Translations under genes and position numbers: made by a program | Shown here: positions 13,434 through 25,515 of the stretch, piece after piece | How the letters are laid out: each line of letters begins with the position of its first letter | Position numbering within the stretch: position 1 is the stretch's first letter | Notes under the pieces: model-generated | The model's database searches: none | What the model saw: the letters and a program-made list of their open reading frames with translations, nothing else | What the model was told of the DNA's origin: nothing | Source: Burkholderiales bacterium | Lineage (GTDB): Bacteria; Pseudomonadota; Gammaproteobacteria; Burkholderiales; Ga0077523 | Reading direction: 5' to 3' | Assembly: GCA_022843925.1 (NCBI GenBank) | Contig: JALHMS010000023.1 | Span: 1-64,000 of the forward strand | Length of the DNA: 64,000 nucleotides

Positions 13434-13597
13434 AGGAGCCTTTCGGACTTGGGATGATTCGGCTGCAACGGTGGGAGAGCGGTCCATGTTCCGCCGCTTT
13501 CCCCTCACGTATTCCCGATACGTTCGTCGACATCGTCAGAATCTGTCCTCGCTCGCCCCCCGTTTCGCTATCGACCACCCAAGCCCGACAGGCTCCT
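13434..13597 (-). repeat. 164-bp MITE-like element, copy 1 (inverted relative to copies 2 and 3)
   Basis: AGGAGCCTTTCGGACTTGGG...AAGCCCGACAGGCTCCT; same length and order as the copies at 39190 and 48344. Confidence 0.85.
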
Positions 13598-13612
13598 AGG
13601 GAGAACACATTG

Positions 13613-14767
13613 ATGAAGGCCATTCTCGAAGCAGCACGACGGGGGCTTCCGATCCTCGCCCTGGCCGGTCTGATCCAGTCGTTGCCCGCGGCGGCGGATC
13701 TGCCCATCGAGACGCTTGGCAGCGAGCCGGTGGTGAAGGCGAAGACCCGGATCTACATCCCCGACATCGCCATCATGCACATCGCCGACGGCAAGCTGCA
13801 CGTGGTCGACGGCGAGACCGGCGCCTACCAGGGGGTCATCGGCACGGGTTTCACCGGTCAGACCAAGGTCTCCCACGACGGCAAGCAGATCTTCATCGCG
13901 ACGGGCTACTACTCGCGCGGCCAGCGCGGCGAGCGCACCGACATCGTCGAGGTCTGGAATGCGGACACCCTCCGCTTCGAGTACGAGATCCCCATCAGCG
14001 AGAAACGCGCGATGGCCCTCAACTACAAGTGGCTCCTCACGCAGTCGTCCGACAGCCGCTGGCTGATCGTGCAGAACGCCACGCCGGCCACCTCGGTGCA
14101 GGTGATCGACCTGCCCCAGAAGAGGACGGTCTCCGAGATCACTATGCCCGGGTGCTGGGCCATCTATCCCGTGCCGTCCCAGCCGAACCGCTTCGGCGCC
14201 CTGTGCGGCGACGGCACTATGCAGATGGTGACCCTGGCCGAGGATGGCAGCGCCGCGTCGCGCACGATCTCCGAACCGCTGTTCGACCCCGACGCCGACG
14301 CGCTTTTCATCCAGGGTGAACCCACCGGCGACATCTACCACTTCGTCAGCTTCACCGGCAACGTCGTCAGCATCGACCTGAGCGGCGAGACGGCCAAGGC
14401 CGCGGGCAAGTGGTCGCTCGTCTCGACTGCGGAACGCAAGAAGGGCTGGCGTCCGGGTGGCTACCAGCCGCTCGCGCTGCACGTGGACTCCGGCCGCATG
14501 TACGTCGCGATGCATCCGGGCGGCGCTGAGGGCAGCCACAAGAATCCCGCGAAGGAAGTCTGGGTGTACGACGTCGCGACGAAGAAGCGCGTCGCGAAGG
14601 TCCATGGCCACGGTGCGACGGCCATCGCCACCTCCACCGACGGCAAGCTGCTCTACGCGATCGATGCCGAGAAGGCCGCCCTCGTGATCACGCAACTGGG
14701 CAAGAAGCCGAAGGTGCGCGGCACGTTCCAGGTGGGCGAGTTCCCCAGCCAGCTCGAGGTGCGCTGA
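13613..14767 (+). CDS. TTQ amine dehydrogenase large (heavy) subunit, MauB/AauB-like
   Basis: Beta-propeller amine dehydrogenase family sequence followed by MauE, MauD and MauA homologues. Confidence 0.85.
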   Translation: MKAILEAARRGLPILALAGLIQSLPAAADLPIETLGSEPVVKAKTRIYIPDIAIMHIADGKLHVVDGETGAYQGVIGTGFTGQTKVSHDGKQIFIATGYYSRGQRGERTDIVEVWNADTLRFEYEIPISEKRAMALNYKWLLTQSSDSRWLIVQNATPATSVQVIDLPQKRTVSEITMPGCWAIYPVPSQPNRFGALCGDGTMQMVTLAEDGSAASRTISEPLFDPDADALFIQGEPTGDIYHFVSFTGNVVSIDLSGETAKAAGKWSLVSTAERKKGWRPGGYQPLALHVDSGRMYVAMHPGGAEGSHKNPAKEVWVYDVATKKRVAKVHGHGATAIATSTDGKLLYAIDAEKAALVITQLGKKPKVRGTFQVGEFPSQLEVR

Positions 14768-14768
14768 G

Positions 14769-15341
14769 ATGGATCCGTCCGCGATCCTCTCGGATCCGGC
14801 CGCGGCAGGCATCGTCGTGGGTGCGCTCGCACTCATCCTCTTCGGTGCCGCGTGGCACAAGCTGTCGGAGCCGAACGCATTCCTGTCGTCGCTCGCCGCG
14901 TACCGCCTCGTGCCCGACGCCACGCTCGATATCGCGGCGCGCGCGGTGCCCGTCGTCGAGATCGCGCTGGGCATCGGCCTGCTGATCCCGGTGACGCGCG
15001 TGCCGGCGCTCGTCGGGACCGCGCTGCTGATGCTCGCGTACGCCACGGCGATCGGCGTCAATCTGTTGCGCGGTCGCAGCTACATCGACTGCGGCTGCGG
15101 CGGCGCCGCCCATCCGCTGTCGTGGGGTCTCGTCGTCCGCAACGGCGTGCTCGCGGCGGCGGCTCTCGCGGTGAGCGGCCCGACGGCGGACCGCGCGCTC
15201 GGCTGGCTCGATGCCTTCACCCTGATCGCGGGCGTGCTCGCGTTCTATGTCGCCTATCTCATGGCCGACGAACTGCTCCGCCAGGCGAGCCGCATGGCGC
15301 GGGCGGACCGGTCGAGCCACGAAGGGAGTCCCCTCTCATGA
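14769..15341 (+). CDS. mauE: MauE-like methylamine utilization membrane protein (DoxX-like)
   Basis: Four-TM protein with SYIDCGCGG motif; gene order B-E-D-A. Confidence 0.85.
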   Translation: MDPSAILSDPAAAGIVVGALALILFGAAWHKLSEPNAFLSSLAAYRLVPDATLDIAARAVPVVEIALGIGLLIPVTRVPALVGTALLMLAYATAIGVNLLRGRSYIDCGCGGAAHPLSWGLVVRNGVLAAAALAVSGPTADRALGWLDAFTLIAGVLAFYVAYLMADELLRQASRMARADRSSHEGSPLS

Positions 15342-17076: not shown

Positions 17077-18342
17077 ATGAGCGATGTATCGAAAGGCAGG
17101 CGCGGCATTCTGAAGGGCATGGCAGCAATCCCGGCGGCAGCCGCGCTCCCGGGGCTCCTGCATGCGCAGGGCAGGCCCATCGTCGTGGGCCTGCCGATCG
17201 CGCAGAGCGGGCCGGCCGGTGTCGCGGATCACGCGGACCACCTGAACGGCGCGAAGCTCGCAGTGGCGGAGATCAACGCGGCGGGCGGCGTGCTGGGGCG
17301 GCCCATCGAGCTGAAGGTCGTGGACATCGACATCCTCACGCCCGAGGGCACGCAGGCCGCGTTCCGCAAGCTCGCGGACTCCAAGGTGCAGGCCATCTCC
17401 TCGCCCTTCGTGCTGATCCCGCAGCCGGCCATCGACGCGCTCGGCAGCTACAAGGCACCGTACCTGCACGGCAACACGCAGATCGCGTCACTGGAACTGG
17501 TCCGCAAGAACGCCCAGAAGTACGGCCACATCTTCCAGTTGGACCCTGCGGAGGTCTACTACGGCCTGGGCTTCCCTCCCTTCCTCGAGCAGTTGCAGGC
17601 GAGCGGTGCGTGGAAGCCGATCAACAACAAGGTCCACATCATCCAGGAGCAGATCGCCTACACGCAGACGATCTCCAAGTCGACGCAGGAAGCCCTGAAG
17701 GGCAGCAAGTTCCAGCTCGCGAAGGTGACGGACATCCAGTTCCCGGTGCAGGACTGGGGCCCCGTGATGCAGGAGATCAAGCGCACCGGCGCCGGCGTCA
17801 TCATGGTCGACCACTGGGTGGCCGCGGAGCTCGCGACGTTCTGCCAGCAGTTCTCGGCGAACCCGCTGAAGGGCGCGCTGGTGTATCTGCAGTACGGTCC
17901 GTCGCAGCCCGAGTTCCTGGAGCTCGCCGGCAAGGCCGCGGAAGGTTTCGTGTGGGGGACGGTGACCGGCGTGCTCGCCGACAAGAAGGGCACCGAGTTC
18001 CGCCAGAAGTACCGCAAGGCCAACCCCGGAATCATGGGCCTCGTCTACACGGGCATGGGCTACGACAGCATCTACATGCTCGCGGGTGCCTGGAAGGCCG
18101 TGGGCGACCCCGACAAGTTCAAGGAAGTGGCCGACCACATCCGCAAGACCCCCTTCCGCGGCGTGAACGGCTGGTCGTATCTCGACAACGAGTACCAGGC
18201 ATCCATCCACTATCCGCTGCAGGCGAAGGACCCCGAGAAGGGCATGGCGCACCTCTTCTTCCAGGTGCAGGGCGGCGAGCACCGCATCATCTCGCCCGCC
18301 ACGCAGAAGGAAGTGAACTTCAAGCCCGCTCCCTGGATGTGA
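17077..18342 (+). CDS. ABC transporter substrate-binding protein, branched-chain amino acid/amide type
   Basis: Tat-like RRGILKGMAAIP signal; LivK-like type I periplasmic-binding fold; followed by LivG/F/H/M homologues. Confidence 0.85.
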   Translation: MSDVSKGRRGILKGMAAIPAAAALPGLLHAQGRPIVVGLPIAQSGPAGVADHADHLNGAKLAVAEINAAGGVLGRPIELKVVDIDILTPEGTQAAFRKLADSKVQAISSPFVLIPQPAIDALGSYKAPYLHGNTQIASLELVRKNAQKYGHIFQLDPAEVYYGLGFPPFLEQLQASGAWKPINNKVHIIQEQIAYTQTISKSTQEALKGSKFQLAKVTDIQFPVQDWGPVMQEIKRTGAGVIMVDHWVAAELATFCQQFSANPLKGALVYLQYGPSQPEFLELAGKAAEGFVWGTVTGVLADKKGTEFRQKYRKANPGIMGLVYTGMGYDSIYMLAGAWKAVGDPDKFKEVADHIRKTPFRGVNGWSYLDNEYQASIHYPLQAKDPEKGMAHLFFQVQGGEHRIISPATQKEVNFKPAPWM

Positions 18343-18343
18343 C

Positions 18344-19096
18344 GTGGTCACGGCACCGCACGCGGGCACCGCGGTGCCCGGCGGGACTCTTTTCGCCTGC
18401 GAGGGCGTGGGGATCACGCTGGGTGGCCGCGAGATCCTCTCCGACGTGGGCCTGCAGGTCCGCGCCGGCGAGGTGCTCGGCATCATCGGGCCGAACGGCG
18501 CCGGCAAGACGACGCTGCTGGAGGTGCTCTCCGGCCGTCTGACGCCACGCACCGGGCGGGTCCTGCTGGAAGGGGCGGACGTGACCGCCCAGCCGATGCA
18601 CCAGCGCGCACGCCTGGGCATCGCCCGCACCTATCAGTCGCCCGTGGTGCCCGACGCGGTGCGCGTGCGCGACGTCTTCCAGGCCGCGCGCGAGGCCTGG
18701 AAGCCGTATCTCACCCGGCACCACGCGGAATGGGCCGCGGCGCTGGTGCGCTTCAAGGCCGACGAGATGATGCCTGCCGGCGCCCTGGAAACGCTCAACC
18801 GCCGCAAGCTTCTGCTCGCCTGCCTTCTCATGCGCAAGCCGCGCGTGATCCTCATGGACGAACCTGCGGCGGGGCTCATCAACGCCGAGGTGGACGAGAT
18901 CGACGCCCTGGTCCGCGTGCTGGCGAAGGAACTCGGCATGGGCGTGGTCATCGTAGAGCACCGCCTCGAACTGCTGGACGCCATCGCCGATCGCGTGGTG
19001 GTGCTGGACCTCGGCCGCGTCATCGCGGAGGGCCCTCCGGAGCACGTCTTCGAGCAGCCCGAGGTGCGCGCCGCCTATTTCGAGAACGCCGAATGA
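18344..19096 (+). CDS. ABC transporter ATP-binding protein (LivG-like)
   Basis: Walker A GPNGAGKTT, Walker B RVILMDEPAAGL. Confidence 0.9.
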   Translation: MVTAPHAGTAVPGGTLFACEGVGITLGGREILSDVGLQVRAGEVLGIIGPNGAGKTTLLEVLSGRLTPRTGRVLLEGADVTAQPMHQRARLGIARTYQSPVVPDAVRVRDVFQAAREAWKPYLTRHHAEWAAALVRFKADEMMPAGALETLNRRKLLLACLLMRKPRVILMDEPAAGLINAEVDEIDALVRVLAKELGMGVVIVEHRLELLDAIADRVVVLDLGRVIAEGPPEHVFEQPEVRAAYFENAE

Positions 19097-19112: not shown

Positions 19113-19838
19113 GTGACCACACCGGTCCTCGACATCCGCGGCCTCTCCGCCGGCTACGGCCCGTTGCGCGTCCTGCACGACCTCGACCTCACCGTGCATG
19201 CCGGCGAGCGCATCGGTCTCGTCGGGCTGAACGGTCATGGCAAGTCGACGCTGTTCCGCGCGGTGGCCGGCCTCACCGACTGGCAGAGCGGGTCCGTCCT
19301 CCTGAACGGCGTCGAAGTGGGCGGCACGCGCAGCCAGGGGCCGGGGCGCCACACCCACGAGATCGTCCGCCGCGGGCTCGCACTGATGCCGCAGGGCGAC
19401 GCGATCTTCCCGGGCCTCACCGTGCGCCAGCATCTCGACGCCGGCGCCTACACGCGACGTGCGTGGCGCGAGCGCGACCGCCGCTGCCGCGACATCCTCG
19501 ACATCTTCCCGCCGCTCGAGAAACTGCTCGACGTGGCGGTCGGCAAGCTCTCGGGCGGCGAGCGCCGGATGGTCTCGCTGGGCCGCGGCCTCATGGCCGA
19601 CGCGACGGTGCTCCTCGTGGACGAGCCCTCGCTCGGCCTGGCACCGAAGATCGGCAAGACTGTGATGGACGCACTGATGCGGATCGATCTCGAGTCCGGC
19701 GCGATGATCATCGCCGAACAGAATCTCAGCCTCCTCGAGGGCCGCGTGACTCGGCTGCTCGGCATGCACGCCGGGCGCCTCAAGGGCGGCGGCATGACGG
19801 CGCTGCCCGGCCGCCACGTGACGGGGGTGGAACTGTGA
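19113..19838 (+). CDS. ABC transporter ATP-binding protein (LivF-like)
   Basis: Walker A GLNGHGKST, signature LSGGERRMVSLGR, Walker B VLLVDEPSLGLAPK. Confidence 0.9.
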   Translation: MTTPVLDIRGLSAGYGPLRVLHDLDLTVHAGERIGLVGLNGHGKSTLFRAVAGLTDWQSGSVLLNGVEVGGTRSQGPGRHTHEIVRRGLALMPQGDAIFPGLTVRQHLDAGAYTRRAWRERDRRCRDILDIFPPLEKLLDVAVGKLSGGERRMVSLGRGLMADATVLLVDEPSLGLAPKIGKTVMDALMRIDLESGAMIIAEQNLSLLEGRVTRLLGMHAGRLKGGGMTALPGRHVTGVEL

Positions 19839-20719
19839 TCGCCGACCTGCCCTACGTCATCGTCTCGGCGCTCGCGCTCTGGGCCATCTACGGCCTGCTC
19901 GCCATCGGCATCTCGATCGTCTGGTCGAGCCTCGGGATGATCAACATGGCGCACGGCTTCACGTTCGCCGTCGCGGGCTACGGCGCATGGCTCGCGGCCC
20001 AGTACGTCTCCGACGCCGGCGTCGTGGTGCTCGGTGCCGGCATCCTCACCGGTGCGGTCAGCGGCGCGCTCATCTACGCGGTGGCCTTCCTGCCGCTGCA
20101 CGACAAGCCCAACTTCATCGTGCGCAGCCTCATCGCCACCCTCGCCATCAGCCTGCTCGGCACGCAGGCGCTGCAGTGGCTGTTCGGCCCGCGCGTGAAG
20201 TCGCTGCCGCGCGTCTTCGGCAACACGCCGCTGGAACTGGGCGAGATCGTGATCACCGCGGACAAGCTCGGCGCCGTGCTGTCGTCCACGCTGCTGCTGG
20301 GCCTGGTGCTCCTCTGGATGACCCGCAGCCGCCGTGGCCTCGAGATCCGCGCGATGATGCAGAACCCGGAGGGCGCCGCGCTCGTGGGCATCGGCCTGCG
20401 CCGCACCGCGATGTCGGTGATGGCAGTCACGGGGGCGCTCGCGGGCCTGGCGTCGGTGCTGCTGTCGCAGACCTTCTTCGTGAGTCCCGGTGCCGGTCTC
20501 CAACCGCTCGTGAAGGGGCTGATCGTCGCCCTCTGCGGCGGCCTCGGCAGCATCCCCGGCGCGCTGCTCGCGGCGGGTCTCGTCGGGATCACCGAAGCGG
20601 CCACCGCCACCTGGCTCGGTGGCCAGTACGTGCTGATGACCCAGTTCGGGGTGATCATCGGCGTGCTCCTCATCCGGCCCCGCGGCATCGGCGGCCTCCT
20701 CGACGAGACGCGCGAATGA
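19835..20719 (+). CDS. Branched-chain type ABC permease (LivH-like)
   Basis: Hydrophobic permease with GLLAIGISIVWSSLGMINMAHG; GTG start overlaps the livF stop. Confidence 0.9.
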   Translation: MIADLPYVIVSALALWAIYGLLAIGISIVWSSLGMINMAHGFTFAVAGYGAWLAAQYVSDAGVVVLGAGILTGAVSGALIYAVAFLPLHDKPNFIVRSLIATLAISLLGTQALQWLFGPRVKSLPRVFGNTPLELGEIVITADKLGAVLSSTLLLGLVLLWMTRSRRGLEIRAMMQNPEGAALVGIGLRRTAMSVMAVTGALAGLASVLLSQTFFVSPGAGLQPLVKGLIVALCGGLGSIPGALLAAGLVGITEAATATWLGGQYVLMTQFGVIIGVLLIRPRGIGGLLDETRE

Positions 20720-22275
20720 GCTGGCGCAATCCGCAACTGCGGCGCGATCCCGCGAAGGGACCGGTGCATCCGCACCTGCCGGTGGGCCGCCGACGCTGGT
20801 GGCCGCGACTGCGTGCCCACGGCGGGAACACCTGGCGCCGCATGCGGTATCCGCTCACCCGGCGGCACGTGCTCTGGACGCGCGGCGAGTACAACCCGCG
20901 CAACCTCGCCGCCGAGGTGCGCATCCTCGACAAGCGGCCGCTGTGGTGGATGGCGGGTCTCGCGTTCCTCGCCATCGCCCCGCTGCTCACCGACGACGGC
21001 ACCATCCTCTCCGCAGCGTCGATCTTCGCGATCTACGCCGCGATCAATCTGGTGTGGATGCTCGTCATCGGCACCGCGGGCATCACTTCCCTGGCGACGC
21101 TCGCGATCGTCGGCGCGGGAGCCTACGGTGGCGCCTATCTCTCGATCACGTACGACTGGCCGTGGTGGAGCATGCTGCCCGTGGGCGGCGCCATCGGGCT
21201 CGTGTTCGGGGTGATCGTCGCGCTGCCGGCCATCCGCCTGGAAGGCTTCTACTACGCGCTGCTCACGCTCGGGCTCGCGGAACTCTGCCGCGTGTACGTC
21301 GTGCAGTCGCGCGTCTTCGGCTCGGCGACGGGTGGCATGTACGGCGCCGCCACGCACATCCCCGACGACCTCTCCGACACCGGCCAGTTGCGTTTCGCGT
21401 ACTACGCGGCGTTCGCGCTGATGCTGTGCGCCCTCGCGCTCTACCGATGGGTGGACGGCCAGCGGCTCGGGCGACTGCTGCGGGCCGCGCCGGAGAAGAA
21501 CGAAGCCTTCGCGGAGGCGGTGGGCATCGACTACCGCCGGGCGCGCATCCAGGTGTTCATCATCTCGTCGGTGGCGCTCGGGGTGATCGGCGGCTTCTAC
21601 GCCTCGCACTTCAAGGGCGCCTCGCCCTCGCTGTTCTCCATGGACAGCCTGCTGCTCATGCTCGCGATGATCGTCATCGGCGGGATCGGCAAGGCCGAGG
21701 GCGCGGTGGTGGGCACGTTGATCGTCGTCGCCATCGACAAGGTGTTCATCGACCTGGGTGCGCTGCGGCTCATATTGATCGGTGCCGTGATGCTCGTCTC
21801 CGTGCTCACCACGCGCGCGGGGCTGTTCGGGATCCAGGCGCAGTTCCGCGCCTGGCGCGAGAAGAAGAAGAGCGAGCGGCGCGCCCGGCGCCAGGAGAAA
21901 GGAGGAGAGGTCGTGCCAGAGGAAGCCACCGAGATCGCCGACAAGCAGGCGATCTACCATCGTCGATTCGACAAGCAGATGCGCGACTTCCTGAAGACGC
22001 TCGTCACCGACGAGGTCGTCGAGGAGCACCGGCTGAAGCCGCTCGGCCAGCACAGCGAGGCGCTGTCGCGGCTGACCAACTACTTCCGCCGCGGCCCCAT
22101 GGCCGACAAGTACGCCGTCTTCACCATCGTGCCCATGCGCGAGTACCGCGTGGTCGCGCTGTCGGGCCAGCGCGGCGTGCCGCCGCGGCTCGTGAACGAC
22201 CGCACCTACCACTCGCTGGGTGACGCCTACCACGCGGTGTTCCTGCTGCGCATCAACGACCTGCTGGAGTCCTGA
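20716..22275 (+). CDS. LivM-like ABC permease with an in-frame C-terminal domain resembling the N,N-dimethylformamidase small subunit
   Basis: LivM TM region to about residue 370, then a charged linker and a ~120 aa soluble domain (HSEALSRLTNYFRRGPMADKY...HAVFLLRINDL); internal SD aaaggagg and GTG at 21913. Confidence 0.8.
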   Translation: MSWRNPQLRRDPAKGPVHPHLPVGRRRWWPRLRAHGGNTWRRMRYPLTRRHVLWTRGEYNPRNLAAEVRILDKRPLWWMAGLAFLAIAPLLTDDGTILSAASIFAIYAAINLVWMLVIGTAGITSLATLAIVGAGAYGGAYLSITYDWPWWSMLPVGGAIGLVFGVIVALPAIRLEGFYYALLTLGLAELCRVYVVQSRVFGSATGGMYGAATHIPDDLSDTGQLRFAYYAAFALMLCALALYRWVDGQRLGRLLRAAPEKNEAFAEAVGIDYRRARIQVFIISSVALGVIGGFYASHFKGASPSLFSMDSLLLMLAMIVIGGIGKAEGAVVGTLIVVAIDKVFIDLGALRLILIGAVMLVSVLTTRAGLFGIQAQFRAWREKKKSERRARRQEKGGEVVPEEATEIADKQAIYHRRFDKQMRDFLKTLVTDEVVEEHRLKPLGQHSEALSRLTNYFRRGPMADKYAVFTIVPMREYRVVALSGQRGVPPRLVNDRTYHSLGDAYHAVFLLRINDLLES

Positions 22276-24621: not shown

Positions 24622-24912
24622 CGTCGGTCGATCTACGGCTCGACGCGGCGCGTCCCCGGGCACAGAGACGAATCCTGGAACACGGGCGTCGGGCGGTGCC
24701 CGACCCACGGGGGTAAGTACCTCGCGCGATTCCAATGCGAAGGTTGTCGTGGGTCGAGCCATGGCTCGACGCGGCGGGTCCCCGGGCGCAGAGACGGTTC
24801 CTGGAACACGGGCGTCGGGCGGTGCCCAACCCACGGGGGCAAGTACCTCGCGCGATTCCAATGCGAAGGTTGTCGTGGGTCGAGCCATGGCTCGACGCGG
24901 CGGGTCCCCGGG
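24622..24912. repeat. 126-bp tandem repeat of paired REP hairpins (about 2.3 units)
   Basis: Units start at 24622 (degenerate), 24749 and 24875; contain GTCGAGCCATGGCTCGAC and GTCGGGCGGTGCCCGAC hairpins. Confidence 0.85.
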
Positions 24913-24918
24913 CGCATG

Positions 24919-25515
24919 TGTTGTAGGAGCGGGCCATGCCCGCGAAAGCGAGGGTTCCGGTCGAAACGTTTCCTCGCATTCGCCGCTTTCGGGGCCATGG
25001 GCCCCTCCTACAGAAGCCACACCCATGGCGCCTGGCTGAATCACGGGGGGATATACAAGGGGTCCTCCCCTTGTTGGTACGCCCTGCGGCCAAGCCGCCG
25101 CGGGCCACCGGCCCGAGAGGCGGCCATGCCCGCGAAAGCGAGGGTTCCGGTCGAAACGTTTCCTCGCATTCGCCGCTTTCGGGGCCATGGGCCCCTCCTA
25201 CAAGGCCATGGGCCCCTCCTACAGAAGCCACACCCATGGCGCCTGGCTGAATCACGGGGGGATATACAAGGGGTCCTCCTCTTGTTGGTACGCCCTGCGG
25301 CCAAGCCGCCGCGGGCCACCGGCCCGAGAGGCGGCCATGCCCGCGAAAGCGTCGGTTTCGGTTGAAGCGCTTCCTTGCATTCGCCGCTTTCGGGGCCATG
25401 GGCCCCTCCTACAAGGCCATGGGCTCCTCCCACAAGGCCATGGGCCCCTCCCACAAGGCCATGGGCCCCTCCCACAAGGCCACGGGCCCCTCCCACAAGG
25501 CCATGGGCTCCGCCT
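24919..25515. repeat. REP/BIME-like array: roughly 190-211-bp units plus 21-bp tandem repeat tail
   Basis: gtaggagcgggccatgcccgcgaaagcg...cgctttcggggccatgggcccctcctac repeated from 24932, 25122 and 25333, then repeats of the 21-mer aaggccatgggcccctcccac. Confidence 0.9.

Follow-up and report, generated by a model that had tools for sequence, protein, structure and literature searches.

The gene at 20716-22275 of the 64-kb stretch of Burkholderiales DNA analysed here (the whole stretch is called the window below) joins an ABC importer permease to the small subunit of an enzyme resembling N,N-dimethylformamidase (DMFase), and is very likely a maintained two-product gene. It probably yields the small subunit both attached to the permease and free. 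The original prediction of two products is strongly supported by comparison with related operons: the internal start codon is kept, the Shine-Dalgarno (SD) sequence in front of it is spelled with rare codons, and the site is replaced by a free gene where it has been lost. From this pattern we infer that ribosomes initiate at the internal start and that the free subunit is synthesized.

Operon organization and properties of the fusion protein

The fusion gene and its neighbours are listed in Table 1. The frame is open throughout from the ATG at 20716, which overlaps the livH stop codon (ATGA), to the stop codon at 22273-22275, and 3 nt separate this stop from the large-subunit gene.

Table 1. 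Features of the operon and of the fusion junction (window coordinates)
Feature	Position	Strand	Basis
Periplasmic substrate-binding protein, LivK/UrtA-like	17077..18342	+	PF13458 E 2.5e-30
ABC ATP-binding protein, LivG/UrtD-like	18344..19096	+	NCBIfam UrtD/LivG matches under cut-off
ABC ATP-binding protein, LivF/UrtE-like	19113..19838	+	NCBIfam UrtE/LivF matches under cut-off
LivH/UrtB-like permease	19838..20719	+	PF02653 E 3.2e-28
Fusion gene, LivM/UrtC-like permease + DMFase-like small subunit, 519 aa	20716..22275	+	
Interdomain hinge, residues 393-399, with conserved (K/R)GGE	21892..21912	+	low-confidence stretch of model
Internal Shine-Dalgarno AAAGGAGG	21898..21905	+	read directly
Internal in-frame GTG start, 7 nt after SD	21913..21915	+	read directly
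DMFase-like small-subunit domain / predicted free 120-aa product	21913..22275	+	phmmer, Foldseek
DMFase-like large subunit, 771 aa	22279..24594	+	6lvb_A E 2.8e-211; PF20254

Residues 97-362 of the fusion protein match BPD_transp_2, and this domain is found, as in the HAAT family, in an operon with a substrate-binding protein, LivG, LivF and LivH. The curated cut-offs for LivM (76 bits vs 366) and UrtC (57 vs 296) are not reached by the fusion permease, and every NCBIfam Liv/Urt model scores under its cut-off on the operon. Judged by these matches, the permease is classed as HAAT-type, and not as LivM or UrtC proper. At its N terminus the LivM-like protein is extended by a basic stretch, and its C-terminal domain is the enzyme subunit.

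A domain resembling the small subunit of Paracoccus DMFase begins at approximately residue 400: residues 408-516 match 6lvb_B (phmmer E 3.9e-9), with a Foldseek TM score (target) of 0.80 over 118 columns. The large subunit is homologous to 6lvb_A over its full length, and the Fe ligands of the Paracoccus enzyme (Y399/Y440/E521) correspond to Y398/Y438/E520. As with DmfA1A2, a small subunit with the DmfA1 fold is encoded beside the large one, here as a fused domain and a predicted free form. A 34-40% identical DMFase paralogue in Paracoccus has no link to DMF use (PMC4543880), so DMF is not assumed to be the substrate of the present enzyme.

As modelled by AlphaFold (37 sequences, mean pLDDT 82), the fusion protein consists, in order, of the permease, a basic helix (residues 370-393), a break (residues 393-396, pLDDT <50) and the small-subunit fold; block means over residues 391-410 are 51 and 55. 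The internal start corresponds to residue 400, in the hinge of the model and at the domain boundary. The basic residues, read by the positive-inside rule, indicate that the C-terminal tail is likely cytoplasmic.

Genes for a methylamine dehydrogenase heavy chain and MauE are located directly upstream of the operon (13454-15341), which suggests that the amine product of the amide is used. A PQQ dehydrogenase and a cytochrome c are encoded downstream; given both sets of neighbours, the operon likely functions in one-carbon or methylated-amine metabolism. Between the large-subunit gene and the opposite-strand cytochrome/PQQ-dehydrogenase genes is a block of tandem repeats (24622-25508) with units of 126, 211 and 21 bp and 94-100% matches.

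Predicted internal initiation site

Read in frame, the junction is CAG GAG AAA GGA GGA GAG GTC GTG CCA GAG GAA GCC. The SD at 21898-21905 and the in-frame GTG 7 nt behind it at 21913, as originally predicted, are exact to the letter on rereading; the length of 120 aa given for the product is also correct, and its frame is that of the ATG at 20716. An initiation signal consisting of SD and GTG is therefore present at 21913, and the gene has what a two-product gene would have at its domain boundary: a start codon in frame with an initiation signal before it.

The motif AAAGGAGG is present once in the 64-kb window. The fusion ORF has 43 ATG, GTG or TTG codons in frame, and the one at 21913 outdoes all others in computed anti-SD pairing (-10.9 kcal/mol, compared with -3.0 at the start of the fusion gene and -5.9 at that of the large subunit). 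Of 1425 ATG or GTG codons that lie internally and in frame in the window's long ORFs, 0.84% have an equally strong SD. Taken alone, SD strength at 21913 is suggestive, not compelling.

Distribution of the fusion among relatives

The same fusion is present in all 97 scorable related operons, from alpha-, beta- and gammaproteobacteria, Pelagibacter and Desulfobacula (relatives retrieved twice were taken out of the counts). Fusions account for all ten full-length copies from the relatives searched first, for 80/80 named loci from one-genome-per-species records and for the close loci added to these. The genome of the window has a second complete fusion with a large subunit (L002, G000:C24), 63% identical and with an ATG-type internal start. 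With an open frame, a second copy in the same genome and counterparts in relatives, the fusion reported in the original prediction is genuine.

The unfused order, in which livM has its own stop codon and is followed by a separate dmfA1, was recovered from just two distant relatives, L212 and L213, in a survey whose query was the fused protein and whose seed included the peptide just after the start, so that unfused forms are under-sampled. In L212, the small-subunit ATG is 4 nt after the livM stop. The proposal that a livM stop codon was lost in front of an intact gene start can be kept as a possible remote origin, and not as a recent event or a leftover: comparison of the junction does recover a retained stop in these two relatives, but the fusion is fixed in 97/97 scorable operons of the family. 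A stop-codon loss would thus be a reasonable but remote origin of the fusion, and its fixation, with unfused forms confined to two distant relatives, argues that the internal start is a maintained element and not a leftover.

Two further loci were considered and set aside. L092, from a Pelagibacter single-cell genome, has a frame break between permease and small subunit (approximately 505-558) and was not counted as unfused, as the break is in a T run and may be a sequencing error; its internal SD and ATG are intact, so the small subunit could still be made. L215, a haloarchaeal protein annotated as 'inner-membrane translocator', was rejected as a fusion since it has no permease domain. The operons of L045 (titled Klebsiella pneumoniae) and L079 (titled Oceanobacillus, 65% GC) group with proteobacterial environmental genomes, and these records are probably mis-assigned or contaminated.

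Conservation of the start codon and SD codons

An ATG, GTG or TTG immediately follows SD-compatible codons in 82 of the 97 operons. In all 82, which are the operons without a free small-subunit gene, a start codon occupies either the position aligned with 21913 (Y) or the codon preceding it (X): X is ATG in 55, and otherwise Y is ATG in 21, GTG in four and TTG in two. Where the start is at Y, X encodes V, I, A or P, and the residue pairs at the start site are variable (M-L, V-M, V-V, P-L). The feature that is kept is thus a start codon 4 or 7 nt after the SD, and not a peptide.

The KGGE peptide encoded by the SD is itself conserved in relatives, and its natural spelling at high GC would be AAG GGC GGC GAG. 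Codon bias was evaluated in 30 start-bearing high-GC loci thinned to <85% identity, with each codon compared to the usage of its own locus. K(-5) is AAA in 23/29 vs 5.7 expected (z 10.3), the most rare-codon-biased of 434 columns of the gene; G(-4), spelled GGA, GGG or GGT, is second (z 7.9), and GAA three codons after the start is third (z 6.2). This GAA is present in 66/82 operons. Thinning to 75% leaves the same two columns, K(-5) and G(-4), on top. GGC GGC is found in none of the 30 thinned loci, a result with a probability of ~1e-8 under their own codon usage, and the same test detects no deviation at the SD codons in operons with a free gene. Elsewhere in the gene, synonymous sites approach saturation (mean excess codon identity 0.04), so the bias at the SD codons does not come from shared descent alone.

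Pairwise synonymous-codon identity along the gene has no peak at the junction, because several SD-compatible spellings alternate. In approximately one fifth of loci with a start (Bradyrhizobium, Methylorubrum, Agrobacterium), the spelling is AAA GGC GGA or AAA GGT GGA, for which the computed SD is weak and no better than that of random synonymous codons. As judged from codon usage, the initiation signal is under selection, as it should be in a two-product gene.

Loss of the internal site and free small-subunit genes

The remaining 15 operons have lost at least one of the two elements, start codon and SD, and these same 15 contain a separate, unfused small-subunit gene of approximately 120-135 codons: a free gene is found inside the operon in 15/15 cases of site loss and 0/82 site-bearing cases, with no exceptions. 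At the junction they have AAG GGC GGC or a similar non-SD spelling (GGT GGT in one), and the start codon is mostly gone (e.g. GCG CTG or CTG CTG). The free gene lies between the fusion and the large gene in L048, L062, L071, L075, L078, L079, L083, L086, L091, L094 and L204, and between two large genes in L160, L161, L165 and L203.

Fisher's test on the 82/15 table, for which the criterion that GGC GGC means a lost SD was set after the data were seen, gives 5e-14 at 90% thinning and 1.8e-3 at 70% thinning. On a tree of the fusion protein built without the junction columns, the change to a free gene occurred twice, and both traits shifted together each time; with two independent origins, a sign test cannot reach 0.05. 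With the number of independent events limited to two, the association stands as strong circumstantial evidence, short of statistical proof.

L165 and L203 have lost the SD alone and still have the ATG, the state predicted by decay of the site once a free gene has taken over. In L078 and L165, the counterpart of the internal start is the ATG that opens the free gene, an indication that a protein beginning at this codon can act as a subunit. Whole-genome searches of 19 start-bearing genomes and the window's own only rarely turned up a further full-length small-subunit gene; the exceptions are G440, where the extra copy belongs to a startless operon, and a Methylopila genome with a distant orphan copy.

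Orphan free small-subunit genes are found in L164 (Methylopila), L200 and L201, whose genomes also carry a start-bearing fusion; the L164 orphan has no large-subunit gene in the adjacent 2.8 kb. Most genomes with the fusion also encode members of a separate family of approximately 150-aa proteins (L003 and L012-L015, with weak matches in most carrier genomes); these match the small subunit over its final 70 residues only (~37% identity, motif RGVPP).

Alternative explanations

The SD and GTG could be fossils, unused remnants of a formerly separate gene whose sole product is now the fusion protein. The unfused livM-stop/dmfA1 arrangement in L212 and L213 makes a separate gene start a plausible ancestor, but the rare SD codons and the start persist in alpha-, beta- and gammaproteobacteria and Desulfobacula despite near-saturated synonymous sites, and vanish only where a free gene exists; we regard this explanation as very unlikely. 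That the SD-like motif is a ribosome pause site for membrane insertion or domain folding appears highly improbable. Its location between membrane and soluble domains is one where pausing could be useful, yet a pause would not require a start codon, which is always kept at one of two positions; start and SD both erode in operons that have a free gene, and a codon following the start is biased as well. It is scarcely credible that the codons of a conserved peptide merely happen to resemble an SD. KGGE is indeed also conserved in operons without the start codon; these, however, spell it with AAG GGC GGC, whereas start-bearing operons mostly use AAA GGA GGN or another spelling that avoids GGC GGC, the absence of which from the thinned loci is far outside their own codon usage, and start and SD decay jointly.

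There is an appreciable, if minor, chance that internal initiation is real and serves mainly to drive translation of the large subunit by coupling, with localisation of the free subunit a minor matter. The large-subunit start in the window follows the small-subunit stop at 3 nt and has the weaker SD of the two, and in one free-gene lineage the free copy directly precedes the large gene. Against this, the gap between small and large genes varies from approximately 0 to 124 nt, and in L033 reaches 1285 nt with an inserted porin-like gene, and the internal start codon is still kept.

Proposed function of the two products

If the gene has two products, initiation at the ATG at 20716 would produce an ABC importer permease with the DMFase-like small subunit as a cytoplasmic C-terminal tail, at which large subunits could dock to the transporter. 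Initiation at the internal SD and GTG (21898/21913) would produce the free 120-aa small subunit. Translation of the large subunit, encoded 3 nt downstream, is presumably coupled to termination in the small-subunit frame, and both forms of the small subunit would assemble with it.

DMFase is an alpha2beta2 enzyme or a dimer of alpha2beta2, and the purified large subunit is inactive without the small subunit (PMC7686228). If each large subunit likewise requires one small subunit, a fusion that was the sole source would impose one permease per active enzyme unit, a constraint that would be relieved by internal initiation supplying free small subunit. Internal starts would then let enzyme exceed permease in amount and provide a soluble form beside the tethered one; the purpose may be stoichiometry, a soluble pool, or channelling at the importer. 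We give about even chances to the fuller proposal of a transporter-enzyme metabolon in which one gene sets the ratio of docked to soluble enzyme by internal initiation, an arrangement replaced twice by a duplicated free gene.

Internal starts usually escape annotation. Rhizobium and Agrobacterium plasmids have the same operon, and in the plasmid records inspected the fusion is annotated as a single 'branched-chain amino acid ABC transporter permease', with no small-subunit gene beside the large one, though the large subunit should depend on one. The comparative data are unusually direct evidence for a functional internal start, with natural knock-outs compensated by a free gene. Should docking of the enzyme on the importer prove true, the family would be a system for asking whether substrates of ABC importers channel to the first enzyme, and would also suit the question of how the ratio of tethered to free subunit is set.

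Comparison with known systems

No published description of the fusion or its internal start was found in the open-access literature, nor was any report there of a two-product gene in an ABC-permease/enzyme fusion.

Some types of Cas system encode the small subunit separately. In others, Cas11 comes from internal in-frame translation of cas8 genes, as with Haloferax Cas11b (PMC11899642). As proposed here, the small subunit of a complex is obtained from an in-frame start inside the gene of a longer subunit, and a potential SD precedes the internal Met; however, the long product is in that case a soluble subunit of the complex, whereas here it is an ABC permease with an enzyme-subunit tail. SctQ of type III secretion (HrcQ, YscQ, Spa33) similarly gives a full-length protein and a C-terminal product, SctQ-C, from an internal start, and some species have two proteins, HrcQa and HrcQb, instead of one (PMC8553256). 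SctQ is a single protein family without a membrane domain, in contrast to the joining of unrelated import and hydrolysis functions in the present gene.

The enzyme resembles Paracoccus DmfA1A2 (PDB 6lvb, PMC7686228; pAMI2 operon, PMC4543880) in subunit sequences, folds, Fe ligands and adjacent genes. The known dmfA1 is a separate gene without a permease fusion, and the present family is DMFase-like by sequence. Like importers of the Liv/Urt type (HAAT), the operon combines a substrate-binding protein, two ATPases and two permeases; unlike them, it falls under the NCBIfam cut-offs and its LivM-like protein is extended at both ends. The design of one gene giving a long product and a C-terminal short one is already known; new here is a long product that is a transporter and a short one that is the subunit of a metabolic enzyme.
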